A DNA stretch of 64,000 nt, taken from NCBI RefSeq assembly GCF_008274585.1, contig NZ_VTRT01000004.1:124001-188000 (forward strand), written 5' to 3'. Below the pieces are notes generated by a model, which was not told where the DNA came from, did not search any database, and worked only from the letters and a program-made list of their open reading frames with translations. Every line of letters starts with the position of its first letter. Within the stretch, counting starts at the first letter, position 1. Source of the DNA: Pedobacter sp. BS3. Its GTDB lineage: Bacteria; Bacteroidota; Bacteroidia; Sphingobacteriales; Sphingobacteriaceae. Below are positions 37,782 to 54,509 of this stretch, piece by piece. Position numbers and translations under genes: made by a program.

Positions 37782-38352
37782 ATGCTCTTATATCAAATCC
37801 TATAGCGACCATGAACTGTTAGGCTTATTAAAGTCGGGAGACAAGCTTGCGCTGGACGAGATCTACAAGCGTTATCATGGCATTCTCTACAGCCATACCT
37901 ACCGGCGTTTTCCCGACAGGGAAGAGGCCCGCGACCTGGTGCAGGAGCTGTTTATCTACCTTTGGAATAACCGGGAAAGCCTGCATATTACCACCAGCTT
38001 ATCATCCTACCTCTATACCTCAGTACGCAACCGTATTCTTAACGCTTACCGCAACCAGAAAGTCCGGGAGGCCTATATTCATTCCCTGCAGGACTTTATA
38101 GCTGCCGGCGAGAATATCACCGAAGAAGCGGTACGCCATAAAGAGCTGATCCGGCTGGTAGAGCAGGAAGTTGCCGCTTTGCCGCCTCAAATGCGCCTGA
38201 TCTTTGAGATGAGCCGCAACCGCGAGATGAGCCATCAGCAGATTGCTGAGGAATTGAATATCAGTCCGCAAACGGTGCGTACGCAGGTGAGAAACGCCTT
38301 GCGTATCCTGCGTGTAAAGCTGGGCGTACATATTTTTTTAATTTTTTTCTGA
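37782..38352 (+). CDS. ECF RNA polymerase sigma factor with apparent frameshift near its start
   Basis: An extracytoplasmic-function sigma factor of FecI type. Region 2 (DHELLGLLKSGDKLALDEIYKRYHGILYSHTYRRFPDREEARDLVQELFIYLW, shown in parts) and region 4 (LPPQMRLIFEMSRNREMSHQQIAEELNISPQTV) are intact. However, the frame encoding them is closed upstream by a stop at about 37772 with no ATG, GTG or TTG before the GTG at 37939. The ATG at 37782 reads MLLYQ and is one base out of register; removing one base between 37791 and 37800 gives MLLYQSYSDHELLGLL, a normal start. Either a one-base insertion or a sequencing error is likely. It is followed by FecR and an STN-type SusC, the usual cell-surface signalling trio. 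Confidence 0.85.
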
Positions 38353-38413: not shown

Positions 38414-39580
38414 ATGATGCAGGACGCAGAAGAGCTATTGAACAAATACAATTCCGGGCAGGCAACCGAGGCCGAGCGGGCCCTGGTGGAAAGCTGGTAC
38501 CTGCATTATAAAACAGGCCCTTCTGACCTGACACCCGAACAGCTTCAGCAGGAGCATGAAGCCGGTTTGCGGGCGCTGAATGCCCGGCTGCACCGGCAGC
38601 AGACGGCTCGTTTATGGCCTCGTATTGCTGCAGCCGCTACGATCCTGCTGGGCATAGTCTGGGGATGGCAACATTATCGTCCGGTTGATAAACCCGTTGT
38701 TGGTCATCCGGTGCAAACCGCTGCAATTAAACCCGGCAGCAATAAAGCGATCCTGACCTTAAGCGATGGCAGTACGATCAGCCTGACCGATGCCGGCAAC
38801 GGAGAACTGGCAGAACAAGCCGGCACCAAAATTATCAAGCAAGCCGACGGGCAGCTATTTTATAAAACGGATAAGGCGGCTCTCACTCCCTCGGAGAGGG
38901 CGGGAGGTGAGGCTTCAATACGCAATATCCTGACGATTCCCCGTGGCGGGCAATACCAGCTCCAACTCCCGGATGGTACTAAAGTTTGGTTGAATTCTGC
39001 TTCGTCATTGCGCTATCCGTCTAAGTTTGACAATAGCGAGCGCCGTGTGGAATTAAGCGGTGAGGCTTACTTTGAGGTGGCTAAGAAGGTGGAAGGTAGT
39101 AAGGCAGAAGGGAGGAAGGTTCCGTTTATCGTAGTGACAGAAAACCAGGAAGTAGAGGTGCTGGGTACGCATTTTAATATCCATGCTTACCCGGATGAGG
39201 AAAAAGCAAGCACAACCCTGCTTGAAGGTAGTGTAAGGGTGCGTGTACGGCATACAGCATATTCCGGTTTGCTCAGGCCCGGGCAGCAGGCGCAGGTAAA
39301 ACCTTCAGAACCTGTTCAGATCCGGTCTGTCAATACCGATGATGCTATTGCCTGGAAGGAAGGCTACTTCGTTTTCGAGGACGCAGATATCAGGACGATT
39401 ATGAATAACCTGGCCCGCTGGTATGACGTGGAGGTGGTGTACCAGGGCGTAGTTACCAACCAGACCTTTGGTGGGGCTTTTCCCCGCTCGGCGGCGCTTG
39501 GCGATTTGCTGAAATACCTGGAAACGTACGGGAATATCCATTTTGCTATCGAAGGAAGGAGGGTACGGGTAATGCCTTAA
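38414..39580 (+). CDS. FecR family anti-sigma factor
   Basis: A 388-residue inner-membrane anti-sigma regulator. The cytoplasmic N-terminal domain (about 1-70, LLNKYNSGQATEAERALVESWY) binds the sigma factor. One transmembrane helix follows (about 73-90, IAAAATILLGIVWGW). The periplasmic FecR domain (about 175-290, LPDGTKVWLNSASSLRYP, RRVELSGEAYFEVAK) and the C-terminal DUF4974 domain (about 320-388, DADIRTIMNNLARWYDVEVVYQG) receive the signal from the STN domain of the next gene. Two linker segments look inserted: LTPSERAGGEASI (about 158-170) and KKVEGSKAEGRKV (about 221-233). The first coincides with an intergenic-type repeat. Confidence 0.95.
   Translation: MMQDAEELLNKYNSGQATEAERALVESWYLHYKTGPSDLTPEQLQQEHEAGLRALNARLHRQQTARLWPRIAAAATILLGIVWGWQHYRPVDKPVVGHPVQTAAIKPGSNKAILTLSDGSTISLTDAGNGELAEQAGTKIIKQADGQLFYKTDKAALTPSERAGGEASIRNILTIPRGGQYQLQLPDGTKVWLNSASSLRYPSKFDNSERRVELSGEAYFEVAKKVEGSKAEGRKVPFIVVTENQEVEVLGTHFNIHAYPDEEKASTTLLEGSVRVRVRHTAYSGLLRPGQQAQVKPSEPVQIRSVNTDDAIAWKEGYFVFEDADIRTIMNNLARWYDVEVVYQGVVTNQTFGGAFPRSAALGDLLKYLETYGNIHFAIEGRRVRVMP
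38879..38916. repeat. Palindromic repeat inserted in frame within fecR
   Basis: The sequence ending GGAGAGGGCGGGAGGTGAGG plus CTT resembles the reverse complement of an intergenic element at 60618-60656 (GGAGAGGG, six or seven bases, GTGAGGCTT). It encodes the LTPSERAGGEA segment of the FecR linker. Confidence 0.5.
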
Positions 39581-39661: not shown

Positions 39662-39710
39662 TTTCTCAGTTGAGTGAAACAACCAATTTTTGATTAAACC
39701 TGACGTTCAA

Positions 39711-42700
39711 ATGTATAAAAAATTTACTGCATTCGGTTGCAGCTGTTTTTCGTATGCTTCATTAAAAATTTTACTAAAAGTGAAGTTAATAACTATTATC
39801 CTGCTCAGCGCTTTTCTACAGGTACAGGCATCCGGCTATGCCCAGACGGTAAGCCTCTCGGTAAACAAAGTGAACCTGAAAGAAGTATTCCGGCAATTGC
39901 GTAAGCAAACCGGCTATGGTTTCCTGTACCGGGAAGCCGATCTGAAAGATACCCGGCCGGTGAGCCTGGAGCTGAGAAATGCGCCTTTAGATGAGGTGCT
40001 GGAACGCTGCCTGGCTAACCAGCCTTTAACCTATCATATCGAGAAGAATTTTGTAATGATCCGGCGCAAGCCGGATTTGGGTAGTGCTGTTACTGTACCA
40101 GGTATTATTATACAAGGGAAGGTTACGGATGAGAAGGGTGAACCGCTTGCAGGTGTTAGCATACGAGTAAAAAATATCCGACAAAGCACAGTTTCTAATA
40201 CAAAGGGCGAATATAAGATCAATGTCCCCAATGAAGATGCGGTTTTAGTATTCAGCTATATAGGGTTCGAAGTACAAGAAAGAAAAGTGTTAAAAAGCAC
40301 GGTTATAAACGTTTCTTTAAAGGAAAAGAATACCGGGTTAAATGAAGTAGTCGTTACGGCTTTGAATATCAGCAGGGAACAGCGTTCGCTGGGTTACTCT
40401 GCCCAGGTGATAGATAGTGTCGCGTTAAATGTAGCTCCTACAGATAACTGGCTGAATGCATTAGAAGGAAAAGTAGCTGGATTGACCTTAAACAGGGCAG
40501 ACGGGCCCATGGGTAGTTCGGATATTATCCTGAGGGGCGATAAGTCGTTGCAATTAGGAAACAGCGGAGCGTTAGTGGTAATAGATGGAGTCCCCGTCAG
40601 CAACAAGATTACAGCCTCCGGAGCGGGAGCCTATGTCTCAGACAATGCTCCTATAGATATGGGAACCGGCATAGGAGATGTAAATCCCGAGGATATAGCC
40701 TCCGTTTCTGTACTGAAGGGAGCGGCGGCAACGGCGTTGTATGGTTCAAGAGGGGCCAATGGAGCAATAGTTATTGTGACCAAGTCAGGAAGCTCACAAA
40801 AAGGTTTGGGAATATCATTTAGTTCCAGTACTGCTATAGAAAATGTCAACAGGCTTCCTGACTATCAGTATGAGTATGGAGCTGGTGCCAATTCAGGAAT
40901 AGATTATTACTCTTATGGAACTTCCGACAGTGGTGCAAACACTTCAAATGCCAATGCCTCATGGGGCCCCAAGTTAAATACCGGTGTAAAATATTACCAG
41001 TACGATCCTGCAACGCAGGGGCAGGGAGCGGAACCAACTGACTGGATAGCCTATCCTGATAACAGGAAGAATTTTTTTCGTACCGGGTTCAAAACCAGTA
41101 ATACTATCTCAATAGAAGGAGGAAGTAAGACCACTAAGGCAAGGTTCTCTGTTGCCAACCAGCAGAATACGTACATATTGGAGAATGTAGGCTATCAAAG
41201 AACGAGCGTGAATTTATCGCTGGACCAGCAGATCAACAAAGACATGAAGATTGCTACCAAGGTAAATTATTACAATAAATCTTCAGATAACCTGCCAACA
41301 ACGGGCTATAGCAATAAATCGGCTTCTTATTTTTTACTGTGGACAACCCCCAACGTAGACACAGAGTGGTACAGGGATTACTGGAAGATAACAAACGGCA
41401 TTAGGCAGGTGGATATAGAGCAGAACAGGCCCTTCAATAAAAATCCTGATAACCCGTATTTTGCTCTTTACGAGATACTAAACCCCATGAAGCGGAATGG
41501 ACTGTTCGGGAATATCAATTTCAGTTATAAGATATCTCCCTTCCTGAATTTTACCGCTAAAACTGCTATAGATATGTACGATGACGTATTATCTAACAGG
41601 TTTCCCAAAAGTAGTGATTCATATTCACAAGGCTTTTACCGGGAGCAAAATGTGATCAGGTATGAACGGAATTCGGATTTCCTGTTGAGTTATAACAGAC
41701 CGTTCAACAGAGATGTTAAGTTCGGGTTATCCGTTGGCGGAAATAGCATGAGCTCTTCTTATAATAGAACAAGAGCCTACGTAAACCGTTTGCTAATACC
41801 AGGACAATATACACTGGCAAACAGGGTAGACAGACCTGTTATAGATGCATATAAGGAAAATAAGGCTATCAATAGCCTATATGCTTTTACCAACCTGTCG
41901 TATAAAGAATATATATTCCTGGAGCTAACGGCAAGAAACGATTGGTCAAGTGTTTTTGCATCAAATAATAATTCTTATTTCTATCCTTCTGCCAATTTGA
42001 GTCTTGTGCTGAGCGATATGTTCAAGGTCAACTCATCGGTATTGTCTTTTGCCAAATTGAGGCTTTCTTATGCAGAGGTAGGAAGTGATACAAATCCTTA
42101 CCGGATAGAGAAGTTCTATTCGGCAAGTAATTTTTCTTCCAGTATAACCAATCCTACCAGCCTGCCTAATTATGAACTAAAGCCAGAACGAACAAAAAGT
42201 TATGAGACAGGTTTAGAAGCAAGGTTCTTAAGAAACAGGATAGGCTTAGATTTAACCTGCTATCTGGCTGATACCTATGATCAAATTTTGAGTGTTCCGG
42301 TTGAGCCTGCCAGCGGCTACTACTATTACTACATGAATGCTGGTACGGTACGTAACAATGGTGTGGAGGTGCAACTATGGGGCAAACTTTTGGAAAGCAA
42401 GAAGGGGTTGTCCTGGAAAATTAATTTTAATGGGGCCATAAATCGCGGAAAGATACTGGAACTTAAAGAGGAGATCGAATCATTAGGACTTTATGCAATG
42501 GGATCTACAGGTGTTTCTTTACAAGCGGTAAAAGGCGGTTCTATAGGCGATATTTATGGACTGGCTTACCAGCGAAATGAGAATGGCGATATTGTATATG
42601 CGAACGGTGTACCCCAGCTAACTACAGAAATACAGAAAGTAGGTAATGCCGTACCTAAATTTAAAGGAGGTATAGGACAGGAGTTCAGGTATAAAAGCTG

Positions 42701-43190
42701 GACCATGAATATCCTTTTTGATGGCGAGTTCGGACACCAGAAATACAGTCTCTCAAACTCAATGTTGATGGCGAGAGGAAACTCAAAAGCGACCTTGCCA
42801 GGAAGAGAAGAAGGAGGGATTTTGGGTAAAGGTGTGGTACAAAATGATGATGGAACATGGCGACCGAACGACATTGTGGTGTCGCCATCGGTTTATTATG
42901 CTGCTCATTATGACAGGACCAACGCCGAAGCCAATGTTTTTGATGCCTCCTATATAAAATTCAGGGAGTTCAGGATAGACAAATCCTTCAGCTCCAAAAG
43001 CCTGCAAAAAGTAGGATTTAAAAAAGCTTCCATAGGCTTATATGGCCGCGATCTGTTTGTATGGACTAAATGGCCGGGTTTTGATCCGCAAAACGGCACA
43101 CTTAACGATGGAACGATTGTACAGGGAATAGAGATTGGGCAGTTACCATCTACCCGAAATATGGGTGTGAACATCAGGTTCTCATTATAA
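39711..43190 (+). CDS. SusC/RagA TonB-linked outer membrane protein with STN signalling domain
   Basis: A transporter of about 1159 residues; I prefer the ATG at 39711 (MYKKFTAFG) to an upstream TTG. A signal sequence ends ASGYAQ. The STN domain follows (VSLSVNKVNLKEVFRQLRKQTGYGFLY, up to IEKNFVMIRRK), then a carboxypeptidase-regulatory-like domain (IQGKVTDEKGEPLAGVSIRVKN), the plug (LNEVVVTALNISREQRSLGYSAQ, ALVVIDGVPVSNK, GAAATALYGSRGANGAIVIVTKSG) and the barrel. The STN domain signals substrate binding to FecR, which frees the sigma factor, so this transporter induces its own locus. Frame intact. Confidence 0.96.
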   Translation: MYKKFTAFGCSCFSYASLKILLKVKLITIILLSAFLQVQASGYAQTVSLSVNKVNLKEVFRQLRKQTGYGFLYREADLKDTRPVSLELRNAPLDEVLERCLANQPLTYHIEKNFVMIRRKPDLGSAVTVPGIIIQGKVTDEKGEPLAGVSIRVKNIRQSTVSNTKGEYKINVPNEDAVLVFSYIGFEVQERKVLKSTVINVSLKEKNTGLNEVVVTALNISREQRSLGYSAQVIDSVALNVAPTDNWLNALEGKVAGLTLNRADGPMGSSDIILRGDKSLQLGNSGALVVIDGVPVSNKITASGAGAYVSDNAPIDMGTGIGDVNPEDIASVSVLKGAAATALYGSRGANGAIVIVTKSGSSQKGLGISFSSSTAIENVNRLPDYQYEYGAGANSGIDYYSYGTSDSGANTSNANASWGPKLNTGVKYYQYDPATQGQGAEPTDWIAYPDNRKNFFRTGFKTSNTISIEGGSKTTKARFSVANQQNTYILENVGYQRTSVNLSLDQQINKDMKIATKVNYYNKSSDNLPTTGYSNKSASYFLLWTTPNVDTEWYRDYWKITNGIRQVDIEQNRPFNKNPDNPYFALYEILNPMKRNGLFGNINFSYKISPFLNFTAKTAIDMYDDVLSNRFPKSSDSYSQGFYREQNVIRYERNSDFLLSYNRPFNRDVKFGLSVGGNSMSSSYNRTRAYVNRLLIPGQYTLANRVDRPVIDAYKENKAINSLYAFTNLSYKEYIFLELTARNDWSSVFASNNNSYFYPSANLSLVLSDMFKVNSSVLSFAKLRLSYAEVGSDTNPYRIEKFYSASNFSSSITNPTSLPNYELKPERTKSYETGLEARFLRNRIGLDLTCYLADTYDQILSVPVEPASGYYYYYMNAGTVRNNGVEVQLWGKLLESKKGLSWKINFNGAINRGKILELKEEIESLGLYAMGSTGVSLQAVKGGSIGDIYGLAYQRNENGDIVYANGVPQLTTEIQKVGNAVPKFKGGIGQEFRYKSWTMNILFDGEFGHQKYSLSNSMLMARGNSKATLPGREEGGILGKGVVQNDDGTWRPNDIVVSPSVYYAAHYDRTNAEANVFDASYIKFREFRIDKSFSSKSLQKVGFKKASIGLYGRDLFVWTKWPGFDPQNGTLNDGTIVQGIEIGQLPSTRNMGVNIRFSL

Positions 43191-43224: not shown

Positions 43225-44670
43225 ATGAAAAAGGTAATATATGCAGGAATAGCGATACTGATATTAAGCTACGGATGTACAAAGGATTTCGATAAATTGA
43301 GCCAGAATCCCAATGCGATTAAGCAAGGGTCGGCGGCAACTCTGCTGTCGCAGACAATTTACAACGGATTGATTTCCCGTATACGGGCTGCGAGAGCTGT
43401 GGGTAATGAGCTGATGGGTTATACTGTTTATAAAAATGAAAGGGCATATACCCAAAGGTTCGATATCAGAAATACGTTGGGCAACGACCTGTGGAACAGG
43501 CATTATACTACACTTACCAACTTAGAGGACATGTACAACAGGGGCATGGCCGAAGGTAATGCAAATTATCAGGCAGTGGCACTAACGTTGAAGGCATGGC
43601 TGGTATCGGAACTGACAGACACCTTTAGGGATATTCCTTATTTTGAAGCAAGTAAAGGAGATAGTCTGAATTTCCTGCCGGCATACAATACCCAGGAAGA
43701 AATATACAAAGATTTGCTTGAAAACCTGGATAAGGCCGCTCTGATGTTCGACAACAGTAAAACCATGTCGGCCGAAGGCGATATCCTTTACGGCTCAAAA
43801 GGCAGCAATGCTTTACAGGTAACGGCATGGCGTAAATTCTGCAACTCTTTGAGGTTGCGTTTGTACTTAAGGGTAAGTAATGCACCCGAATTTGACGGCC
43901 CTGCAAAAATCAATGAAATTGTAAGCAACTCTTCTGTATTTCCCATCTTTACCACTGCGGCAGATCAGGCGTACATTCCGTTTACCAACCAAGAGCCTTT
44001 GTACAATCCTTATTATAATGCTACCAGTGGCGATTTTGGCGTACTCTATGCTCCGAGTACTACTATTTTACAAATGATGCAGGATACCGCCGACCCTCGC
44101 CTTTCGCAATATTACACCAGGGCTGTAAGCACATGGACCGGGATAAAAAGCGGTTTCCCATCGGGAGTTTTAGGCCAGGTTACTGAGGGCGGTACATCTT
44201 ACGTGAATTACAATCTGCACGACTCACCAAGATTTGGCGTAATTATGAACTACGATGAAGTTCAGTTCATTTTGGCCGAGGCAGCTTTAAAAGGCTGAAT
44301 AAATACCGGCACATCGGCCGAAACGTATTATCTGCAGGGCATTCGCAGCAATTTTGAGTTTTGGGGATTGACACCGTCCTCTACCTATCTTAACGGTTCG
44401 GGCGTAGCATTTGATAATACCCTGGAGATCATTATGAAGCAAAAATACCTGGCTTCGTTCTACAGGGGATTAGAAGCTTGGTTTGAATACCGCAGAACAG
44501 GCTTCCCGAATCTGATCATAGACCCACGGGCAGATAATAATGCTGTTGTTCCAAGCAGGCTGGTATATCCTGCGGTTACGCAGATGTATAATCCTACCAA
44601 CTATAGAAAAGCGGTAGAAAGAATGGGAGGAGATAATATTAACATCAAATCGTTCTGGGAAAAACCATAA
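43225..44670 (+). pseudogene. SusD-like (SusD/RagB) lipoprotein interrupted by in-frame TGA
   Basis: A SusD-like lipoprotein of the SusD-like_2 type (lipobox SYGC, Cys18; TKDFDKLSQNPNA). One 481-codon frame is intact except for a TGA at 44296-44298. It reads AEAALKG, stop, INTGTSAETYYLQGIRSNFEFWG, and a Trp codon (TGG) is expected there because family members commonly have GWI at this point. The change is thus a single G-to-A. Upstream and downstream parts are otherwise normal, ending RMGGDNINIKSFWEKP. It may be a true nonsense mutation or an error in the sequence. It follows the STN-SusC gene by 34 bp and should be its partner. Confidence 0.88.
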
Positions 44671-44715: not shown

Positions 44716-46326
44716 ATGAAAACTATCCATTACCTATTATTAGCATTACTGTTACTGGCAATATCATCATGCTTTAAAGAAAAGGATACATTACTGGGAG
44801 TACCTACAAAAAATATGTCGATACATATTTTAAGACAAATGGATGATGGGGGAGAAATATTGCTTACAAAAGATAATGTTGGGGCAGCACCCTTATCAGG
44901 CACGGTGATATCCGATGCGCAGGCCGGTAATATAGAAAAAGGAAAATTTGTAATTGTGCAGAATAAAGAAGGTGTAACTGCCGGTATAACTGTTTCTTTA
45001 CAGGGAATGCCAGATGTAACATATATCCCTGGCGACTCATTAGTTCTCGATGTTTTGGGCAGCACATTAAAAAGAGTAGGCGGGCAACTGGAAATTACCA
45101 ATGTTCCCCTTGCAAAAATCTCTAAAGTAGCTGCCGGAAAAACAGTTAGTCCTCTATTAGTCTCATTAGATGAGTTGGCTCGTAATTTTAACCAATATGA
45201 AAGTATGCTGGTTACCGTGGCAGGGGCGGATATTGTGTTAGATGCAGGAGAGCCTCAAACTTATGCCGGAACCAAAAAAATGGATGATTCTTCTAATGAA
45301 CCAGGAACAGTTAACCTGAATACGTTAAGTACAGCAGTTTTTGCAACAGAAGAAATACCCTTGGTGGCCAATTTTACCGGTATAGCCGTTCGGATTAACA
45401 ATACGCTTAATATGAGGATGAGAAGCTTGGGAGATGTGAATGTGCCAAACGGGCAAAAGCAAGAGACGAAACTTATCATAACAGGCTATGTAACCAATCC
45501 GTCGGGAAGCGACGCTAATAACGAATATGTACAGCTGATGGCAACAGAGGATATTAATTTTGCGGAAACCCCTTATGCTGTTATTAGCTGTTATACTTCA
45601 TATACGGGAACCTGGGAAACCAGCGCTCCCGTAAAGGGATGGGTCACCGGCACGGTGGACAGTAAAAAAGCAGGAGACCCTACTTCCCAAACTACTAAAT
45701 TTAATATTACAAGCGGAGAAGTTAAGGCAGGTCAATTTTTCTATGTGGGCGGTGCGGTAAAGAAAATCAATGGCAGTAGCTCTACCGATATTAGCGAAAC
45801 CGCAGTAGTAGAGGCCAATCGGGCAAAATGGATGAGGGTATTAAGTTATGGGTCAACCCCTTGGGTGGGTGATGATGGTGTTGGAGGAGGCATATTTGGT
45901 GCTTTGTGGGGCAATAGTGAAGCTCCGCAGGGCATAGCCGTTTTTAATACCACCAATGTAACCTCGGCCACCGTACCTGTCGATGTAGTTTTCTTCGGTA
46001 CTTTCCCCACCAGCAGTACAGACCAAAAACGGCTTTATGACAATTCGGGCAGTACCGAACTTGGTTACCGCATTTGCAATACCGACAGGTATTCAGTAGC
46101 AAATGGCGAGTTTTTCGCCAAAGGCGGCAACACCTATCTATATGCCCCTGCCACCAGTGCCGATGCAACGGCAACCGCTAAATTTTACCGGTTAGGAGGA
46201 GTTTATGACAGGGTATTTAAAATGTGGATAATGCCAAGAGAGGTTACCGAAATTACCATGACTACTTCTTCGTCACTGTCGTTGATAGAGACAGGCACAG
46301 GATTAACCACTCTTTTATCGAAGTAA
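44716..46326 (+). CDS. DUF5689-like lipoprotein with C-terminal IITGYV-type domain
   Basis: A 536-residue surface lipoprotein (lipobox ISSC, Cys19). Residues about 45-240 look like DUF5689, an OB-fold-like module (LSGTVISDAQAGNIEKGKFVIVQN; GDSLVLDVLG; QLEITNVPLAKI; NQYESMLVTVAGADI). After a linker (VPNGQKQ) come residues about 251-536, the shared domain of this locus: TKLIITGYVTNPSGSDANNEYVQLMAT, DPTSQTTKFN, GDDGVGGGIFGALWGNSEAPQGIAVFNTTNV, PVDVVFFGTFP, GYRICNTDRYS, FYRLGGVYD. The opening NP.G.D.NEYVQL pattern resembles lamin-tail domains. It is 45 bp after susD and 11 bp before the GDPD gene, so one operon. Function unknown. Confidence 0.85.
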   Translation: MKTIHYLLLALLLLAISSCFKEKDTLLGVPTKNMSIHILRQMDDGGEILLTKDNVGAAPLSGTVISDAQAGNIEKGKFVIVQNKEGVTAGITVSLQGMPDVTYIPGDSLVLDVLGSTLKRVGGQLEITNVPLAKISKVAAGKTVSPLLVSLDELARNFNQYESMLVTVAGADIVLDAGEPQTYAGTKKMDDSSNEPGTVNLNTLSTAVFATEEIPLVANFTGIAVRINNTLNMRMRSLGDVNVPNGQKQETKLIITGYVTNPSGSDANNEYVQLMATEDINFAETPYAVISCYTSYTGTWETSAPVKGWVTGTVDSKKAGDPTSQTTKFNITSGEVKAGQFFYVGGAVKKINGSSSTDISETAVVEANRAKWMRVLSYGSTPWVGDDGVGGGIFGALWGNSEAPQGIAVFNTTNVTSATVPVDVVFFGTFPTSSTDQKRLYDNSGSTELGYRICNTDRYSVANGEFFAKGGNTYLYAPATSADATATAKFYRLGGVYDRVFKMWIMPREVTEITMTTSSSLSLIETGTGLTTLLSK

Positions 46327-46337
46327 AAAAGTAAACC

Positions 46338-48143
46338 ATGAAAACAAACGGTCTAATTGTGAGCCTTTTAATTGGTATTCACTTAGCTGCCTGTGCCAAA
46401 CATGCACAAACGCTGGAAACAGATCAAAAAGGAGAAAAGGCAGAAGCTGTTCCGGAATTTTTTTATGAAGCTCATCGTGGCGGGAGGGGATTGCTGCCAG
46501 AGAACACCATCATCGCGATGAAACATGCTGTTGATTTGAATGTGACGACACTGGAGATGGATTTGGTGATCTCCAAAGACAAAAAAGTGGTCGTATCACA
46601 CAATCTGTACTTTAGCGCTGATTTCACTACAACGCCCGAAGGCAACGCCATAACTGCCGCCGATGGTCGGAGCCGTCTGTTATACAATATGCCTTACGAC
46701 AGCATCAGAAAATATGATGTTGGATTAAAGCAGGATCCCCGATTTCCAAACCGTAAATGCGTAGCGGCAAAGATACCTTTGCTTGCCGATCTGATAACCG
46801 AAGTAGAAGCTTATGCAGCAAGCAAAGGCAAAAAAATGTTCTATGATATGGAAATCAAGTCTTCCGAAGCCGGGGATAACATTAAACATCCGGCGCCGCA
46901 GGAGTTTGTTGATCTGGTTATGGCGGTAGTTCGTGATAAAAAAATTACAGAGCGTACTGTTATTCAGTCATTTGATATCAGGCCCTTAAAATTATTAAAG
47001 GAACACTATCCCCAGATCAAACTGTCATGTCTGGTAAATAAGTCGAACGCTACAGATGTAGACAAACGTTTACAGGAACTGGGCTTTAATCCCGATTTCT
47101 ATAGCGCCGACTATACCACCATTACAGCCGATATGGTAAAAACCTGTCATGACAAGGGTATGAAAGTGATAGCGTGGACAGTAGATACCGAACAGGATAT
47201 TAACCGGTTAAAAGCATTAGGAGTTAACAGTATTATAACGGATTATCCAAATCTGTTTAAGCTGGTGGATGTAAGTGTTCCGAAAGGGCAAAAGCATAAT
47301 ACTAAAGTTATTATTACGGGATATATAAGCAATCCGGCCGGGGCCGATGCCAATAACGAGTATGTACAGCTGATGGCAACGGAGCATATCAATTTTGCGC
47401 TTACGCCTTATGCCGTAATTACTGCCTACAGTTCGTCATCTGGAAACTATGCAACCAGTGCTCCCGCAAAGGGTTGGATTACCGGTAAAGTACCGAGCAA
47501 AACTACAGAAGACGACCCTACCTCCCAAACTACCAAATTTAATTTAACAAAAGGAGAAGTTCAGGCCGGAGAGTTTTTTTATGTTGGAGGGGCAAATAAG
47601 AAGATCAATGGATCGGCTTCTACAAATATTGATCAGGCCAGATGGATAAGGACATTAAACTATCAGCAAAAAACAACCTGGTCTGGTGATGATGATGTTG
47701 GAGGGGGTAAATTCGGAGCGCTGTTCAGTAACGGAGCTATGCCACAAGGCATAGCCGTTTTTAATACCACAAACGTTACCGAAGCAACCGTACCTGTTGA
47801 TGTGGTGTTTTTCGGGACTTTTCCAACAAGCGAAAAAGACCTGAAGCGGCTTTATGATAATTTGGATGGTAAAGCGCTGGGATACAGGATCTGTAATACA
47901 GACAGGTACTCCACAACAAATGGTGAGTTCTTTGGCAAAGGTGACAATATCTACACGTTCAGCCCTGCAAGTAATGCCGATGCATCGGCTCAGGGTAAAT
48001 TTTACCGCTTAGGAGGGATCTATGATCTAACAACCAGGGAATGGACAAAGCCAAGAGAAGCCATAGAAATTATTATGGAAAACACATCGCCACTTTCATT
48101 AATAGAAACCGGGGCAGGGTTAACCACTCTTTTAACTAAATAA
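46338..48143 (+). CDS. Glycerophosphodiester phosphodiesterase lipoprotein fused to IITGYV-type domain
   Basis: A 601-residue lipoprotein (lipobox LAAC, Cys19). Residues about 40-310 are a GDPD TIM barrel with all key residues: His46 in AHRGGRGLLPENT, Glu73 and Asp75 in LEMDLVISKD, His88 in VVSHNLYF, and the later MEIKS and WTVDTEQDI blocks. It hydrolyses glycerophosphodiesters to glycerol-3-phosphate and an alcohol, presumably on the outer surface. After a linker almost identical to that of the preceding protein (VPKGQKHN), residues about 322-601 form the shared domain (YVQLMAT, DPTSQTTKFN, GYRICNTDRYS). It is the clearest enzyme in this locus and points to phosphodiester substrates. Confidence 0.95.
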   Translation: MKTNGLIVSLLIGIHLAACAKHAQTLETDQKGEKAEAVPEFFYEAHRGGRGLLPENTIIAMKHAVDLNVTTLEMDLVISKDKKVVVSHNLYFSADFTTTPEGNAITAADGRSRLLYNMPYDSIRKYDVGLKQDPRFPNRKCVAAKIPLLADLITEVEAYAASKGKKMFYDMEIKSSEAGDNIKHPAPQEFVDLVMAVVRDKKITERTVIQSFDIRPLKLLKEHYPQIKLSCLVNKSNATDVDKRLQELGFNPDFYSADYTTITADMVKTCHDKGMKVIAWTVDTEQDINRLKALGVNSIITDYPNLFKLVDVSVPKGQKHNTKVIITGYISNPAGADANNEYVQLMATEHINFALTPYAVITAYSSSSGNYATSAPAKGWITGKVPSKTTEDDPTSQTTKFNLTKGEVQAGEFFYVGGANKKINGSASTNIDQARWIRTLNYQQKTTWSGDDDVGGGKFGALFSNGAMPQGIAVFNTTNVTEATVPVDVVFFGTFPTSEKDLKRLYDNLDGKALGYRICNTDRYSTTNGEFFGKGDNIYTFSPASNADASAQGKFYRLGGIYDLTTREWTKPREAIEIIMENTSPLSLIETGAGLTTLLTK

Positions 48144-48149
48144 AAAATG

Positions 48150-48199
48150 AACGCTGGCGGGTTATAGATCTGGTTTACCCCTATAGCCCTGTCAGCGTT
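48150..48199 (+). terminator. Hairpin after the GDPD gene
   Basis: An imperfect stem pairs AACGCTGGCGGGTTATAG with CTATAGCCCTGTCAGCGTT, around a 13-nt loop. It lies 7 bp after the stop. It may end or attenuate the upstream transcript before the next paralogue. There is no long T-run. Confidence 0.5.
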
Positions 48200-48286
48200 T
48201 CACAGGCCAATATTTTAGATTTTGTTGTGCACAAGATGAAGTAGAGCACTATCAATAGATCAATTCACATTTAACCGTTAAGAATC

Positions 48287-49228
48287 ATGAAAAAGAACCT
48301 GTTTTCATTGCTGCTCATTTTAGCAATGACCATCGTAACGAAAGCACAACCGCAGGATACAAAAGTTATCATCACAGGGTACGTAACTAATCCGGCCGGG
48401 GCTGATGCAAACCGCGAATATGTACAGCTCATGGCAACCGAAGACATTAATTTTGCCGAAACTCCTTACTCGGTTATTACTTGTTATACTTCGTACTCCG
48501 GAACTTGGGAAACCTTTGCTCCTGTACGTGGATGGGTTACGGGCAAAATAGATAGTAAAAAAGCTAATGATCCAACCTCACAAACCACCAAATTTAATCT
48601 CACAAAAGGAAAAGTTAAGGCAGGCGAATTTTTCTATGCGGGGGGAGCAGGCAAAAAGATTAACGGGGCAGCCTCTACCGATATTAGCGAAAAAGCACCC
48701 GTAGCCGCCAATCAGGCAAAATGGATAAGAACATTAACCTATGGCGCAAAAACATGGTCTGGCGATGATGGTATTGGAGGCGGGATATTTGGAGCCTTGT
48801 TTGGCAATAGCGAAGCTCCGCAGGGCATAGTCGTTTTTAATACTACCAATGTTACCGAGGCAACTATACCTGTCGATGTGGTTTTCTTCGGTACTTTTCC
48901 CTTAAATAAAGTTAACCAAAAGAAACTTTATGAGCGTATTGGAGGCAAGGAGCTTGGATACAGGATTTGCAATACAGACAGGTATTCCGTTTCAAAAGCC
49001 GGTTTTTTTGCCAAAGGCAATAATACATATCTATTCCCCCCGGCAAGCAGCTCCAATGCGGCCGCACAGGGCAATTTCTATAAGCTGGGCGGAGTTTACG
49101 ATATAAAATCGAAGAGGTGGACAGACCCAAGGAATGGAGCGGTTATAGTTGCAATGACCAATGATACACAGCTTGCAGAAATAGAAAAAGGCAAAGGCAC
49201 AACAGAGATCAGGGGCTTGGGGAAATAG
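48287..49228 (+). CDS. Stand-alone secreted IITGYV-type domain protein
   Basis: A 313-residue secreted protein: signal peptide (about 1-20, ending TKAQ) followed directly by the shared domain (about 24-300: DTKVIITGYVTNPAGADANREYVQLMAT, DPTSQTTKFNLTKG, GDDGIGGGIFGALFG, GYRICNTDRYS, FYKLGGVYD). There is no lipobox and no T9SS tail. The last residues (ALAEIEKGKGTTEIRGLGK-like) differ from the paralogues. This is the minimal form of the domain and shows it can stand alone. Function unknown. Confidence 0.85.
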   Translation: MKKNLFSLLLILAMTIVTKAQPQDTKVIITGYVTNPAGADANREYVQLMATEDINFAETPYSVITCYTSYSGTWETFAPVRGWVTGKIDSKKANDPTSQTTKFNLTKGKVKAGEFFYAGGAGKKINGAASTDISEKAPVAANQAKWIRTLTYGAKTWSGDDGIGGGIFGALFGNSEAPQGIVVFNTTNVTEATIPVDVVFFGTFPLNKVNQKKLYERIGGKELGYRICNTDRYSVSKAGFFAKGNNTYLFPPASSSNAAAQGNFYKLGGVYDIKSKRWTDPRNGAVIVAMTNDTQLAEIEKGKGTTEIRGLGK

Positions 49229-49280
49229 ATTAATATTTCGCTTTATAAATTAATTTTCATTCACTTTAAATTAAAAAATT

Positions 49281-50753
49281 ATGAAAAAACTATTATTTTC
49301 TTTATCGCTTCTTATAGTAATGGCAGCTGTATTGAAAGCGCAGCCACAAGACACAAAGGTTATTATTACGGGCTATGTAGTAAATGCCAGCGGGAGCGAT
49401 CCCAGTAATGAGTATGTACAGTTGATGGCAACAGAACATATTAATTTTGCCGAGACTCCCTATGCCGTTATTACCTGTTATACCTCATTTTCGGGAAATT
49501 ACGAAACCAAAGCTCCTGTGCATGGTTGGGTTACGGGCTTAATACCAAGTAAAAGTACAGGTAAGAAAGACGCCAATGGTAACCCGGTCGAAGACCCTAC
49601 TTCCCAAACCACTAAGTTCAATTTAACAAGCGGAGAAGTGCAGCCCGGTGAGTTTTTCTATGTAGGTGGGGCAAATAAGAGAATTAACGGCAGCAGTTCT
49701 ACAGATATTAGTGAAACAGCCGCAATTGAAGCTAACCGGGCAAAATGGATCAGGGTATTGCCTTATCATAATACATCAACATTACCCCCCTGGTCGGGTG
49801 ATGATGGCGTTGGTGGAGGTATATTTGGCGCATTGTTTGGCGATAGTGATGCGCCTCAGGGTATAGCTGTTTTTAATACCACAAGTGTTGATGAAACAAC
49901 CGTACCTGTTGATGTAGTGTTCTTTGGAACTTGGCCTACGGCAGAGGCAGATCAAAAGAAACTTTACGATAATTCGGGCAGTACCGAGCTTGGATACAGA
50001 ATTTGTAATACAGATAGGTATTCAACCGCAGATGGCGCATTTTTTGGCAAAGGAAATAATAAATATCTATTTGGTTCAGACGGTACGGTCAACAAATTTT
50101 ATCAATTAAAGGGAGTTTACAATGTAGCTACCAAATCATGGACAACGCCAAGAGCGCTCAACACCATTACCATGACAACCACCTCCCCACTTTCGCTGAT
50201 AGAAACCGGCTCAACAACGTTACCTGTAAACATTGTTTCCGTTAAGGCAGAAGTTTTGGCAAAAGCTGTGCGCCTGCATTGGACTACCGCCTCCGAAACC
50301 AACAACGCCTACTTTGAAGTTTTGCGTTCCAACAACCAGACAGATTTTGTGAGTATAGGCAAGGTAACGGGCAACAATGCCGCCCACGATTATGTGTTTA
50401 CAGATTACAGTCCACTGCCCGGTACGGCTTACTATAAATTACGGCAGGTAGATTTAGATGGAACGGCAATAGAGTTCGATATCATAGCCGTTAAGAATGG
50501 CCTAAATCCCGATAAGTTAAATATGGCGGTGAACGTTGGCGGCAATACGCTCAGGGTGTTTACCCAATCAGTCGAAAATACCGAAGCACTATTGACCGTT
50601 ACCGATATCTCCGGCAAAAAAGTGTTGGAAAAGAAAATCCGTTTGGTTAACGGCAATGCAGTTTACCAGGAGCCATTTAACCAACCACAAGGCATATACG
50701 TTGTTTCATTGAAAACCAGCAAAGAACAAGCGGTACTGAAATTTGGTAAATAA
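49281..50753 (+). CDS. Secreted IITGYV-type domain protein with T9SS tail
   Basis: A 490-residue secreted protein: signal peptide (ending VLKAQ), the shared domain (about 24-305, with an insertion STGKKDANGNPVE before DPTSQTTKFN), then a T9SS-type tail (about 312-490: LPVNIVSVKAEVLAKAVRLHWTTASETNNAYFEVLR, TDISGKKVLEKK, QGIYVVSLKTSKEQAVLKFGK). The last 539 bp are nearly identical to the end of the gene at 52893. It should be exported by the Por secretion system. The gene starts 52 bp after the preceding paralogue. Confidence 0.87.
   Translation: MKKLLFSLSLLIVMAAVLKAQPQDTKVIITGYVVNASGSDPSNEYVQLMATEHINFAETPYAVITCYTSFSGNYETKAPVHGWVTGLIPSKSTGKKDANGNPVEDPTSQTTKFNLTSGEVQPGEFFYVGGANKRINGSSSTDISETAAIEANRAKWIRVLPYHNTSTLPPWSGDDGVGGGIFGALFGDSDAPQGIAVFNTTSVDETTVPVDVVFFGTWPTAEADQKKLYDNSGSTELGYRICNTDRYSTADGAFFGKGNNKYLFGSDGTVNKFYQLKGVYNVATKSWTTPRALNTITMTTTSPLSLIETGSTTLPVNIVSVKAEVLAKAVRLHWTTASETNNAYFEVLRSNNQTDFVSIGKVTGNNAAHDYVFTDYSPLPGTAYYKLRQVDLDGTAIEFDIIAVKNGLNPDKLNMAVNVGGNTLRVFTQSVENTEALLTVTDISGKKVLEKKIRLVNGNAVYQEPFNQPQGIYVVSLKTSKEQAVLKFGK
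50215..50753. repeat. Near-identical T9SS-tail repeat, copy 1
   Basis: These 539 bp match 53971-54509 with no length difference and only scattered substitutions. They encode the T9SS tails of two neighbouring paralogues. The level of identity exceeds that of the upstream shared domains, suggesting gene conversion or recent tail exchange. Confidence 0.85.
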
Positions 50754-50762
50754 GAATACCAT

Positions 50763-50795
50763 AGACTTACGAAGTTTTTTAAACTTCGTAAGTCT
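50763..50795. terminator. Perfect 15-bp hairpin after the T9SS paralogue
   Basis: AGACTTACGAAGTTT and AAACTTCGTAAGTCT pair perfectly around a TTT loop, 10 bp after the stop codon at 50753. It may act as a terminator or be another member of the palindromic repeats of this genome; a similar 15-bp hairpin lies at 57282-57314. Confidence 0.6.
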
Positions 50796-50940
50796 AACCT
50801 ATCCAATAGCTGTATTTTTTTACTTAAACAGATGCTGGCCTTTACTTGGGCTCGTTATGGTCGTAATAACATCTTTCTGATCAGCTCTTTTTAAAATCAA
50901 TAATCTTCATTTAAAAGAGAAGAACACCAGTTGTAATTTA

Positions 50941-52869
50941 ATGAATTCTACAATGATAAAAATTAAAAAAATAATTCTGCCTCTATTGTTTCTTGGTTGT
51001 TCGGGGGCAATAAAAGCTCAGTTTTTAAGTCCCGATGCCAGCTTTGCCACAGGAACCGGCTTTAACGGAACGGTATGGGAACTCTCAAAACAGTCGGATG
51101 GAAAAATTATTGCCTCCGGGGAGTTTACGAGTTATAACGGAACTACTGTAAACAAGTTGACCAGGCTGGCTGATAATGGCAGTCTTGATGCCATCTTTAA
51201 CACCAATCTTGGCACCGGCTTCAACAATACCGTTTATACCCACTTGTTACAGTCTGACGGGAAAATTGTGGTAGCTGGCGATTTTACCGCTTTCAATGGC
51301 AATACCAGGAACAGGATTGTCCGTTTAAACGCCAATGGCACTATCGATAACACATTCAGCATCGGCACAGGCTTGGATGCCGAAGTGCTGAAAGTAGCGC
51401 TTCAGAGTGATGGGAAAATCCTCGCTGCAGGCAGTTTTACCACTGCTAACGGCGTATCTTCTTCTGGTATTGTGCGGCTGAATACCAATGGAAGCAGAGA
51501 TAACACTTTTTCGGTGGGTAGCGGCTTCAATGTAAATGACGGGGGCATTGGTAACCGCCCGGTAAGGGATATCGCCCTACAATCTGACGGCAAAATAATA
51601 GTGGCAGGGGAATTTACCAGCTATAATGGAACGTCCGTTAATCGTTTGGTACGCCTAAACACCGATGGCAGTATAGACAATACGTTCACATCAAAGATAA
51701 AGTTCGACGATGTGGTATATGGCGTTAAGGTACAGCCCGATGGCAAAATACTGGCTGTTGGCGCTTTTTCAACCTGCAATAGCGAACATGCCAGTTACAA
51801 AATAGCGAGAATTAATACAGACGGAACACTGGATGTTGATTTCAACACCAATATAGGTACGGGGTTTTATGCCCGGATAGGGGCAGGAACGGGTACAGGC
51901 TTTTTTAAAGACGAAGAAAATCCGAGAACCATCGTCCTGCAAGCCGATGGCAAAATACTCATAGGAGGCGATTTTGTATATTTAGATGGCGTAAACAGCA
52001 GGCATTTTGTTCGGTTAAATGCAGATGGTACTTTGGGTACTCCCAACACAAATCCGTCGGGTTTTACCCTGTACCAATTAAAAATACAGGCCAACACCAT
52101 AGGCAATTCCTATATTATAAAAACCAGTAATGGAAAATTAATTGTAATGGATGGCGGCTATGAGGCTGAAGAAACGTACCTCCGTAATTTTATAAACAGT
52201 CTTGGGGGTAAGGTTGAAGCTTGGTTTCTGTCGCACCCGCACCAAGACCATGCAGGCGCTTTTAACGAGATACTAAAGAACCTGCAGGGCATAGAAATTA
52301 AAAACATATACCATTCAAAACCACCTGCAAGCTGGGTAACATCGGCATTCTACCAGGATTTGTACAACTCCATAGACAATGCGGCGCAAAATGGTGTCAA
52401 CGTAGTAAACTATACTACAATTCCCAATGAGGTGATAACTATAGACCAGGTAAATTTTAGGATACTTAGCGTGGCCAATCCAGAGTTGAGCACAGCGTCC
52501 ACAAGAATTAACAATTCATCAATGGCCATAAGGGTATGGGATGAGCAAAAATCTATTGTGTTTTTGGCCGACTTGCAGTTGGAAGGAGGAAACAAGCTGT
52601 TGAACAGCCCACAGCGCCAATATTTGGACTGCGATTACTTGCAGATGTCCCATCATGGCAATGACGGGGTAGGCAAAGCGTTTTACCGTTCCGTTAGGTT
52701 TAAGGCTTGTTTGTGGCCTACCCCCGGATGGTTGTGGGACAATCAGGCCGGTAGTGCAGGGTTTAACACCGGAGGCTACGATACGCTGGAACAAAGAGAG
52801 ATAGTAGATAATGAACTTGGCATACGGCGCAACTATATAGGTTCCAAAGGATTGAATATAATCAAGTGA
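50941..52869 (+). CDS. Secreted delta-60 repeat protein with metallo-beta-lactamase-fold domain
   Basis: A 642-residue exported protein (the ATG at 50953 is an alternative start; signal peptide ends IKAQF). Residues about 35-370 hold six or seven delta-60 repeats of about 53 residues (pattern QSDGKI.AGGFT.NG....IVRLN.DG..D..F), a probable beta-propeller-like binding region. Residues about 380-642 form a metallo-beta-lactamase fold with the metal motif HPHQDH (His432, His434, Asp436, His437), IVFLADLQLEGG and a later SHHGNDG. Such folds include phosphodiesterases (for example pneumococcal phosphorylcholine esterase), nucleases and lactonases. Its neighbours include a GDPD, so phosphodiester hydrolysis is plausible but not shown. 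Confidence 0.85.
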   Translation: MNSTMIKIKKIILPLLFLGCSGAIKAQFLSPDASFATGTGFNGTVWELSKQSDGKIIASGEFTSYNGTTVNKLTRLADNGSLDAIFNTNLGTGFNNTVYTHLLQSDGKIVVAGDFTAFNGNTRNRIVRLNANGTIDNTFSIGTGLDAEVLKVALQSDGKILAAGSFTTANGVSSSGIVRLNTNGSRDNTFSVGSGFNVNDGGIGNRPVRDIALQSDGKIIVAGEFTSYNGTSVNRLVRLNTDGSIDNTFTSKIKFDDVVYGVKVQPDGKILAVGAFSTCNSEHASYKIARINTDGTLDVDFNTNIGTGFYARIGAGTGTGFFKDEENPRTIVLQADGKILIGGDFVYLDGVNSRHFVRLNADGTLGTPNTNPSGFTLYQLKIQANTIGNSYIIKTSNGKLIVMDGGYEAEETYLRNFINSLGGKVEAWFLSHPHQDHAGAFNEILKNLQGIEIKNIYHSKPPASWVTSAFYQDLYNSIDNAAQNGVNVVNYTTIPNEVITIDQVNFRILSVANPELSTASTRINNSSMAIRVWDEQKSIVFLADLQLEGGNKLLNSPQRQYLDCDYLQMSHHGNDGVGKAFYRSVRFKACLWPTPGWLWDNQAGSAGFNTGGYDTLEQREIVDNELGIRRNYIGSKGLNIIK

Positions 52870-52892
52870 TTGTCTTATAAATGATATAGAGT

Positions 52893-54509
52893 ATGAAAAA
52901 GAATATAGTATTGATGGTGTGCTTTTGTTTGCTGGTGTATGGAAGGTTACATGCGCAACAATCGGGATTTAACAATAGCGTATATACTATTGTTGCAAAC
53001 GGAAACAAGCCTATTGTTGGTGGCAAATTTACAAGTGTAAGAGAAGAGGAGCATAACCGTATTGTTCGTTTGCAAGAAGATAACACACCATGGGACAATA
53101 CAAGAAAGCAGGATACAAAAGTTATCATTACAGGGTACGTAACTAACCCGGCTGGTGCTGATGCCAACCGCGAATATGTGCAGTTGATGGCTACCGAATA
53201 CATCAACTTTGCGGCAACGCCCTATTCCGTTATCACGTGTTATACCTCTTATTCCGGAAACTGGACAACCAAAGCTCCGGCGCAGGGCTGGGTTACAGGC
53301 ACCATACCAAGTACACAAGCGCCGCCAAAAGATGTCAATGACCCCACCTCGCAAACCACTAAATTTAATATAACAAGTGGGGAAGTTCAGGCAGGTGATT
53401 TTTTCTATATTGGAGGGTCAAACAAGAGAATTAATGGGGGCAGTTCTACCGATATCAGCGAAACAGCCACCGTTGTAGCCAACCGGGCAAAATGGGGCAG
53501 GGTAATCACCTATGGTTCAACGCCATGGACAGGTGATGACGGTGTTGGAGGAGGTATATTTGGAGCATTGTTCGGCAATAGTGAAGCGCCGCAGGGCGTG
53601 GCCGTTTTTAATACCACAAACGTTACCGAAGCAACTATGCCCATTGATGTGGTGTTTTTTGGCACTTCGCCCACAACTGAGACCAACCAAAAGAAACTTT
53701 ACGATAATTCGGGCAGTACCGAGCTTGGGTATAGAATATGTAATACAGACAGGTATTCGACCGAAAATGGCGAATTCTTTCTCAAAGGCAGCAATACGTA
53801 CCTGTTTGGCCCCGAAACCAGTGCCGATGCAACGGCACAAGGTAAATTTTATCAGCTAAGAGGAACTTACGATGCAATAGCAAAAAAATGGATAGAGCCA
53901 AGGATAGTTACAGAAATTACCATGACAACTACTTCCCCGCTTTCGCTGATAGAAACAGGATATACATACACAACGTTACCTGTAAACATTGTTTCCGTTA
54001 AGGCAGAAGTTTTGGCAAAAGCTGTGCGCCTGCATTGGACTACCGCCTCCGAAACCAACAACGCCTACTTTGAAGTGCTGCGTTCCAACAACCAGGCAGA
54101 TTTTGCAAGCATAGGCAAGATAACGGGCAACAATGCCGCCCATGATTATGTGTTTACAGATTACAGTCCGCTGCCCGGTACGGCCTACTATAAATTACGG
54201 CAGGTAGATTTAGATGGAACGGCAATAGAGTTCAATGTTATAGCTGTTAAGAGTGGTCTAAATCCGGATAAGTTAAATATGGCGGTGAATGTTGGCGATA
54301 ATATGCTCAGATTATTTACCCAATCGGCCGAGAACACCGAAGCGTTATTGACCGTTACCGATATCTCCGGCAAAAAAGTGTTGGAAAAGAAAATCAACCT
54401 GATCAATGGCAATGCTGTTTATCAGGAGCCATTTGACCAGCCGAAAGGAATATATGTAATTTCGCTAAAAACTAATAAAGAACGGGCAGTATTAAAATTT
54501 GGAAAGTGA
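52893..54509 (+). CDS. Secreted chimeric protein: delta-60 remnant, IITGYV-type domain, T9SS tail
   Basis: A 538-residue secreted protein starting 23 bp after the MBL gene. The signal peptide (ending LHAQQ) is followed by one degenerate delta-60 repeat (about 25-60: GFNNSVYTIVANGNKPIVGGKFTSVREEE and NRIVRLQ). The shared domain then begins abruptly at about residue 71 (KQDTKVIITGYVTNPAGADANREYVQLMAT, GDDGVGGGIFGALFGNSEAPQG, GYRICNTDRYS), and the T9SS tail runs from about 360 to the end (QPKGIYVISLKTNKERAVLKFGK). It looks like a recombinant between an upstream delta-60 gene and a paralogue of 49281. It ends in TGA, so TGA is a normal stop here. Confidence 0.86.
   Translation: MKKNIVLMVCFCLLVYGRLHAQQSGFNNSVYTIVANGNKPIVGGKFTSVREEEHNRIVRLQEDNTPWDNTRKQDTKVIITGYVTNPAGADANREYVQLMATEYINFAATPYSVITCYTSYSGNWTTKAPAQGWVTGTIPSTQAPPKDVNDPTSQTTKFNITSGEVQAGDFFYIGGSNKRINGGSSTDISETATVVANRAKWGRVITYGSTPWTGDDGVGGGIFGALFGNSEAPQGVAVFNTTNVTEATMPIDVVFFGTSPTTETNQKKLYDNSGSTELGYRICNTDRYSTENGEFFLKGSNTYLFGPETSADATAQGKFYQLRGTYDAIAKKWIEPRIVTEITMTTTSPLSLIETGYTYTTLPVNIVSVKAEVLAKAVRLHWTTASETNNAYFEVLRSNNQADFASIGKITGNNAAHDYVFTDYSPLPGTAYYKLRQVDLDGTAIEFNVIAVKSGLNPDKLNMAVNVGDNMLRLFTQSAENTEALLTVTDISGKKVLEKKINLINGNAVYQEPFDQPKGIYVISLKTNKERAVLKFGK
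53971..54509. repeat. Near-identical T9SS-tail repeat, copy 2
   Basis: The partner of 50215-50753, equal in length and nearly equal in sequence. It encodes the secretion tail of the last paralogue. Confidence 0.85.

Follow-up and report, generated by a model that had tools for sequence, protein, structure and literature searches.

Five neighbouring proteins (A, B, C, D and F), encoded in a stretch of 64,000 nucleotides from Pedobacter sp. BS3 (NCBI RefSeq assembly GCF_008274585.1, contig NZ_VTRT01000004.1, positions 124,001 to 188,000 of the forward strand; the whole stretch is referred to as the window), each hold one copy of a domain of ~280 residues that is probably a non-catalytic binding or targeting module of SusCD loci. 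We favour, with a probability of about 0.6, the reading that it serves as a surface capture or targeting module for phosphodiesters; the sequences, architectures and gene orders are observed and the folds predicted, while we infer its ligand, its binding and its surface location alike. This reading follows from the phosphate-ester enzymes that recur beside the domain, from the glycerol-phosphate (Glp) genes and from a phospholipase C in the closest related locus. The substrates would be phosphodiesters, probably glycerophosphodiesters from phospholipids, because glycerol-phosphate genes are found among the neighbours. The original prediction had suggested a common ligand without specifying it, and the present analysis narrows it to probably phosphodiesters.

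Open reading frames (ORFs) with the common domain were found at all five predicted starts (Table 1). Pairs of copies are 60–73% identical in protein over 285–322 residues and 68–75% identical in DNA, and the D–F pair reaches 77% (protein) and 79% (DNA) in an alignment that also includes their common type IX secretion system (T9SS) tail. With regard to the anchor motifs proposed to be the same in all five proteins, EYVQLMAT, DPTSQTTKFN and GYRICNTDRYS are present in 5/5 copies, whereas IITGYV reads IITGYI in the 46338 protein (B) and PVDVVFFGT reads PIDVVFFGT in the 52893 protein (F). The five different partners could also be recognised. A carries DUF5689 (PF18942, 70.9 bits against a cut-off of 28.6, E 1.8e-19), B carries a glycerophosphodiester phosphodiesterase (GDPD) domain (115.9 bits against 23.6, E 4.2e-33) whose enzyme activity is predicted from sequence, C carries nothing further, and D and F carry T9SS tails (TIGR04183, 30.3 and 29.6 bits, cut-off 23; PF18962, also a T9SS model, scored below its own cut-off on both). 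The delta-60 remnant of F scored 16.3 bits, below the Pfam cut-off of 27, but is backed by a 48-residue stretch with 46% identity to the repeats of E, the gene directly upstream. That the copies are debris of duplication or an artefact is ruled out by the five open ORFs, this degree of identity and the export signals (by eye).

The genome holds 10 copies of the domain, five in the window and five others at 41–44% identity. Moreover, of 399 genomes sampled from the host's family, 191 (from 12 of 25 genera) have the domain, as do 7 of 296 genomes in a phylum-wide sample; it is no general trait of Bacteroidota. Copy numbers per genome in these two scans are to be read as at-least values (6–9 candidates scored per genome). 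A scan of named records confirmed 223 relatives, with record titles nearly all from genera of Chitinophagaceae and Sphingobacteriaceae, and the best 80 of these 223 are referred to as the 80 named loci. They were chosen with an alignment of eight rows, all of the common type and none from the window, so that odd architectures are maybe under-represented among them. The further genome copies, the family genomes and the named relatives together rule out a purely local invention. One named locus (L062), from a record titled Williamsia (Actinomycetota), is a typical Chitinophaga-like locus that falls among Chitinophaga in the tree described below, and is probably a mislabelled metagenome-assembled genome.

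The ORF caller recovered the host protein in 79 of the 80 named loci; the exception was L064, whose DNA, read by eye, has the same gene order as the other loci. The architecture count was made on 80 rows, consisting of A and the 79 named loci (without L064), and in all 80 DUF5689 was matched and a lipobox-type cysteine (C19) was invariant. When the 79 named loci were taken together with four from the window's own genome, SusD occupied position −1 in 80/83 and SusC position −2 in 78/83, and a sigma-factor cluster was seen at −4 in 30 and a FecR cluster at −3 in 33; tblastn on the 80 named loci detected SusD in 78 and SusC in 76. The usual unit is therefore SusC – SusD – DUF5689+domain lipoprotein. 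This agrees with the SusCD setting of the original prediction, whereas its picture of local expansion with changing partners applies to the window and is exceptional elsewhere, DUF5689 plus domain being the usual form.

Some other arrangements were nevertheless seen. A signal peptide, the domain and a T9SS tail make up proteins in two own-genome loci (L012 and L013, tails of 27.0 and 30.4 bits, cut-off 23), and in genome G442 a secreted copy (L150/L204; L204 9703–11049) has a tail of 15.4 bits, below that cut-off, and L153 encodes signal peptide, domain and a tail called by eye. G414 (L155) carries a domain-alone protein and G019 (L205) a SusE + domain protein. Secreted copies lie no more than ~3 kb from a DUF5689 copy in G442:C20, G414:C2 and contig C12 of the own genome, and local duplication therefore recurs. 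Among the proteins examined, which were part of the family-scan matches, the fusion of GDPD to the domain was restricted to the window.

The gene neighbours provide the main evidence for phosphodiesters. Most of the enzymes that recur next to the domain cleave phosphate esters or are predicted from sequence to do so, the exceptions being GDSL hydrolases, one GH43 glycosidase and the hydrolase of E. As determined by tblastn, a metallophosphoesterase (MetallophosN/C; representative PF16370/16371) is present in 42 of the 80 named loci, GDPD in 19 and a YncE-type phosphoesterase in 7, and the Glp genes are represented by GlpD in 10, GlpT in 8 (the representative exceeds the TIGR00712 cut-off), GlpK in 8 and GlpF in 6; six of the loci are shorter than 15 kb. 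A phosphoesterase of any sought kind was found in 50/80, and in 49/80 it lies downstream on the same strand within 5 kb. Enzymes of the endonuclease/exonuclease/phosphatase (EEP) family were detected in 0/80 named loci, which rules them out as a general partner despite their presence in L012, L013 and L014, the three own-genome loci scanned for them. A 516-residue oxidoreductase in L013 was rejected as GlpD, having DAO and Rieske domains, and was not counted.

As a control, we considered 118 SusD_2 hits in 25 genomes (hits of at least 150 bits, among those listed; a weak fragment in G014 was not counted as domain). PF16370 or PF03009 lies within 8 kb in 6/11 of those with the domain versus 5/107 of those without (Fisher p 5e-5). 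When the own genome, where one match is protein B itself, was removed, the counts were 4/7 versus 4/101 (p 4e-4). The background in family genomes is 33/61 for MetallophosC and 9/61 for true GlpT (over cut-off). Among the cases without the domain are three (G021:C89, G011:C2 and G020:C32) in which SusD_2 stands beside MetallophosC or GDPD, and these are possible sister loci for the same substrate.

Individual loci show how these genes are arranged. L202 contains a complete chain of SusC, SusD, DUF5689+domain, metallophosphoesterase, GDPD, GlpT and GDSL hydrolase, with GlpF, GlpK and GlpD on the opposite strand. The other complete chain, in L204, runs from a GlpD-type oxidase and a DeoR regulator over SusC, SusD and DUF5689+domain to the secreted domain protein, a phosphodiester glycosidase, a metallophosphoesterase and GDPD. 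In L205, which is of the SusD_RagB type (SusD PF07980/PF14322), the SusE+domain gene lies between those for a PLD-like protein and a phosphodiester glycosidase. The phosphodiester glycosidase (NAGPA) proteins are encoded at L204 11264–12667 and L205 6236–7216.

Among 84 loci and L202–L204, G414:C2 is the closest to the window locus by a wide margin (SusC 56%, SusD 50%, DUF5689 44% identity). It encodes a phosphocholine-specific phospholipase C (L203 10864–13437; TIGR03396, 779 bits, cut-off 580) directly after a gene for a signal peptide and the domain only. The domain half of A, in contrast, is closest to the G442 secreted copy by a small margin (181 bits versus 160 for G414). A quick, midpoint-rooted tree was made from 56 rows: five from the window, 12 others of the first alignment, 29 named (the even-numbered of 53) and 10 from multi-copy genomes, the last including two identical pairs. 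The five copies of the window group together in this tree (SH-aLRT 100), with the G442 secreted copy as the nearest row (92), and lie outside the main DUF5689+domain set, which comprises 42 rows. That SusC, SusD and DUF5689 point to one relative and the domain to another suggests that the domain has been exchanged or homogenised within the window locus. The window fusions were probably made from local parts, since B keeps the linker of A (DVSVPKGQKHNTK / DVNVPNGQKQETK) and F matches the repeats of E. The GDPD of B has 19 stand-alone counterparts, GDPD ORFs of 18 related loci with which it shares 41.8–53.5% identity.

The domain is not named by any Pfam or NCBIfam model, as judged by cut-off matches sought in the window proteins and their relatives, and a search of PDB sequences with the domain profile gave no match at E up to 1. 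Its undescribed appearance thus persisted in profile searches, none of which returned a characterised family over cut-off. The lamin tail domain (LTD) model PF00932 (cut-off 34.3 bits) had no match at E up to 1 in the window proteins and gave weak ones in relatives (1/17 rows at E 0.006; 5/80 rows at E up to 0.01, best 0.0011). An AlphaFold2 model of the domain of C (pLDDT 88.4, pTM 0.91) predicts an Ig-like sandwich for residues ~4–190, about the first 185. Foldseek placed the lamin A/C Ig domain first, although weakly (E 8e-3), whereas VIA-align ranked DUF4876 protein BT_1938 (PDB 4q1z) at the top (Z 8.1, 200 aligned residues, rmsd 4.7), with eleven lamin Ig entries at Z 5.4–7.0 over 102–117 residues and a twelfth at Z 4.3, these lamin scores all lying below the safe-match level of the tool. 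When the domain was compared by hhalign with a profile of 18 LTD stretches, it scored 32.6 (probability 53–63), which none of 60 column shuffles reached (maximum 19.0; reversed profile 13.9), and the alignment was in register at the EYxQL and GxFFYVGG strands. The DUF4876 profile (PF16215) scored 19.6, inside the shuffle range (up to 22.2), and DUF4876 was ruled out on sequence, though it is the nearest fold found. The initial impression of a lamin-tail-like start is thus strengthened by the profile score and, weakly, by the structural neighbours, and the domain is probably a distant lamin-tail relative, outside PF00932 by Pfam's own threshold. In the full model of A (pLDDT 84.5), the DUF5689 half is predicted as two tandem oligonucleotide/oligosaccharide-binding (OB) folds (residues ~31–147 and ~145–246), which resemble OB domains of Teb1, Ten1, HIN-200, RPA and tRNA synthetases in the PDB (Z 8–9.8).

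The head of the window locus encodes regulators and the SusCD pair (Table 1). The window SusD is interrupted by an in-frame TGA at 44296–44298, the frame being otherwise open to 44670. This column is tryptophan in 69/81 relatives, and the TGA is either a nonsense change or a sequencing error. Protein E, a ComEC-like hydrolase of the metallo-beta-lactamase (MBL) fold, stands inside the cluster between D and F without a copy of the domain. An Rfam scan of the window gave no match above gathering scores.

Table 1. Features of the domain locus, in window coordinates
Feature	Position	Strand	Evidence
Sigma-70 family factor (extracytoplasmic function type), start uncertain, head of the locus	37939..38352	+	PF08281 E 2.6e-13
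FecR-type regulator	38414..39580	+	PF04773 E 6.1e-17, PF16344
SusC/RagA TonB-dependent transporter	39690..43190	+	TIGR04056 577 bits (cut-off 368)
SusD-like_2 lipoprotein gene, one in-frame TGA	43225..44670	+	PF12771 217.5 bits
Protein A: lipoprotein, DUF5689 (residues 33-241) + lamin-tail-like domain	44716..46326	+	Pfam; lipobox by eye
Lamin-tail-like domain copy in A	45454..46305	+	profile match (G000:C22:169454-170305)
Protein B: lipoprotein, GDPD (residues 46-305) fused to the domain	46338..48143	+	PF03009; lipobox by eye
Domain copy in B	47289..48122	+	profile match
Protein C: signal peptide + domain, nothing else	48287..49228	+	signal peptide by eye
Domain copy in C	48344..49204	+	profile match
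Protein D: signal peptide (by eye) + domain + T9SS type A tail (residues 420-488)	49281..50753	+	TIGR04183
Domain copy in D	49338..50219	+	profile match
Protein E: delta-60 propeller repeats + metallo-beta-lactamase-fold hydrolase, domain-free	50941..52869	+	PF17164 (6 stretches), PF00753 E 1.4e-10
Protein F: signal peptide (by eye), ~1 delta-60 repeat, domain, T9SS tail (residues 470-536)	52893..54509	+	TIGR04183
Domain copy in F	53103..53969	+	profile match

The favoured reading can be put as a sequence of steps. The lipoprotein consisting of tandem-OB DUF5689 and the domain, in the position of SusE, would hold a phosphodiester at the SusCD gate, where surface or periplasmic phosphoesterases (metallophosphoesterase and GDPD; in some loci EEP, PLD-like or phospholipase C enzymes) would cleave it. 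The products would pass inward through SusCD, and glycerol-3-phosphate or glycerol would be imported and burned via GlpT/GlpF/GlpK/GlpD where those genes exist. In the window, the domain would have been copied onto a GDPD lipoprotein and onto secreted proteins (two with T9SS tails), uniting enzyme and capture surface. A broader and quite speculative picture is that Sphingobacteriaceae and Chitinophagaceae widely possess a Sus-type uptake machine devoted to phosphodiesters of phospholipid origin or of poly(glycerol-phosphate), with the lamin-tail-like domain and tandem OB folds as a dedicated phosphodiester-binding surface module; duplication and fusion might then give a cellulosome-like concentration of phosphodiesterases on dead-cell membranes or teichoic acid. 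Teichoic acid is hydrolysed by GDPD-type enzymes.

Several observations weigh against phosphodiester capture. As many as 30/80 named loci are without any sought phosphoesterase or Glp family, and some of these may be bare SusC-SusD-lipoprotein units. A GDSL hydrolase cluster appears in 15/80, and a GH43 glycosidase comes next in L205. With regard to the window itself, its locus contains no metallophosphoesterase of the type found elsewhere (the single genome copy is on another contig), the hydrolase of E is one of the exceptions listed above, and the interrupted SusD means that the locus may be impaired. Since the domain of A groups with a secreted copy and not with the closest locus, function carries over to the window only indirectly. 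Finally, OB folds and lamin-tail domains also suit nucleic acids, and an unlikely alternative is that the tandem-OB, lamin-tail-like lipoprotein binds extracellular DNA or RNA, which would then be digested by nucleases, imported or used in natural transformation. The best PDB matches of the DUF5689 model are indeed DNA-binding OB proteins (Teb1, HIN-200, POT1, RPA), but OB folds occur in tRNA synthetases too and can bind sugars. The ExeM nuclease unites LTD, two OB-like regions and EEP, as far as its account was available (PMC6085458), and EEP enzymes occur in the three own-genome loci; however, the 0/80 for EEP in the named loci contrasts with 19/80 for GDPD, and the Glp genes indicate glycerol phosphate. 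A DUF5689+DUF5017 protein is listed among those essential for transformation of Riemerella anatipestifer in the part of the report consulted (PMC8459023), but its C-terminal half differs.

The changing partners in the window could also be explained if the domain, with no ligand specificity of its own, served generally for surface attachment or as a spacer and held any fused enzyme at the outer membrane. Excerpts of earlier work agree with this: a proposal of Mans et al. 2004 (cited in PMC6085458) gives lamin-tail domains of bacteria a role in bringing proteins to membranes, and DUF1735 of glycan loci is proposed to be a membrane-bound spacer (PMC11216935). We nevertheless regard such a role as improbable. 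Anchoring is already present in 4/5 window proteins (lipobox by eye in A and B, T9SS tail in D and F), and the enrichment of phosphodiester enzymes nearby, as seen in the SusD_2 control, is unexpected for a neutral spacer.

In the open-licence literature searched, no paper on the domain was found and DUF5689 occurs in one paper. Bacteroidota are known for glycan uptake by SusCD, and little is known of an outer-membrane route for organic phosphorus. Many SusCD loci could be assigned if a marker domain helped to separate those for phosphodiesters from those for glycans, and the role of such a domain would suggest a function for DUF5689 and provide a test case for bacterial lamin-tail-like domains. 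If correct, phosphodiester capture would also give a clue to the scavenging of organic phosphorus by common soil bacteria.

Compared with known systems, the domain resembles LTD in its predicted Ig-like sandwich and in-register profile alignment, and its partners (MBL in the locus, EEP, calcineurin-like phosphoesterase) recall LTD partners reported in the portion seen of PMC6085458. It is unlike LTD in being weak in Pfam, in having ~100 more residues with large insertions, and in its usual partner DUF5689. DUF4876 provides the best structural neighbour, and BT_1938 is also a putative lipoprotein, which the part consulted of PMC10434189 tabulates beside a TonB-dependent receptor; the two differ in that no sequence signal links DUF4876 to the domain and that the setting of BT_1938 is an iron stimulon. 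ExeM-type extracellular nucleases likewise combine LTD, tandem OB and phosphodiesterase parts (PMC6085458, seen in part), whereas here most enzymes are encoded by genes of their own and the LTD-like part lies at the C-terminus; Pfam detected no EEP in A, which thus lacks the ExeM combination of LTD, OB region and EEP in one protein. The glycan-binding lipoproteins SusE/SusF are alike in gene position after SusD, and one protein, that of L205, combines a SusE domain (PF14292) with the domain, but the neighbours here are phosphodiester enzymes and not only glycan enzymes.

A further parallel is offered by the phosphate utilisation systems of Flavobacterium (PusCD, PUSI–IV), which, according to the part of PMC8115612 consulted, place SusCD-like complexes beside phosphodiesterases; for PUSI a role in scavenging phosphodiesters, among them nucleic acids and lipid headgroups, is proposed there. 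That part names neither DUF5689 nor the domain. A SusCD pair co-located with phosphodiesterase genes is common to both, here with a phosphoesterase of any sought kind in 50/80 named loci (GDPD in 19) and in the window via the fusion in B. In contrast, PusD1 is of the pf07980/pf14322 type (PMC8115612, same part), whereas the window SusD is PF12771 (PF14322 gives 19.0 bits, below its cut-off of 27); L205, with its PF07980/PF14322 SusD, shows a partial likeness. SusCD for organic phosphorus is thus already known from Flavobacterium (PMC8115612, as far as consulted), and the loci described here have a SusD mostly of another lineage and a marker domain of their own.

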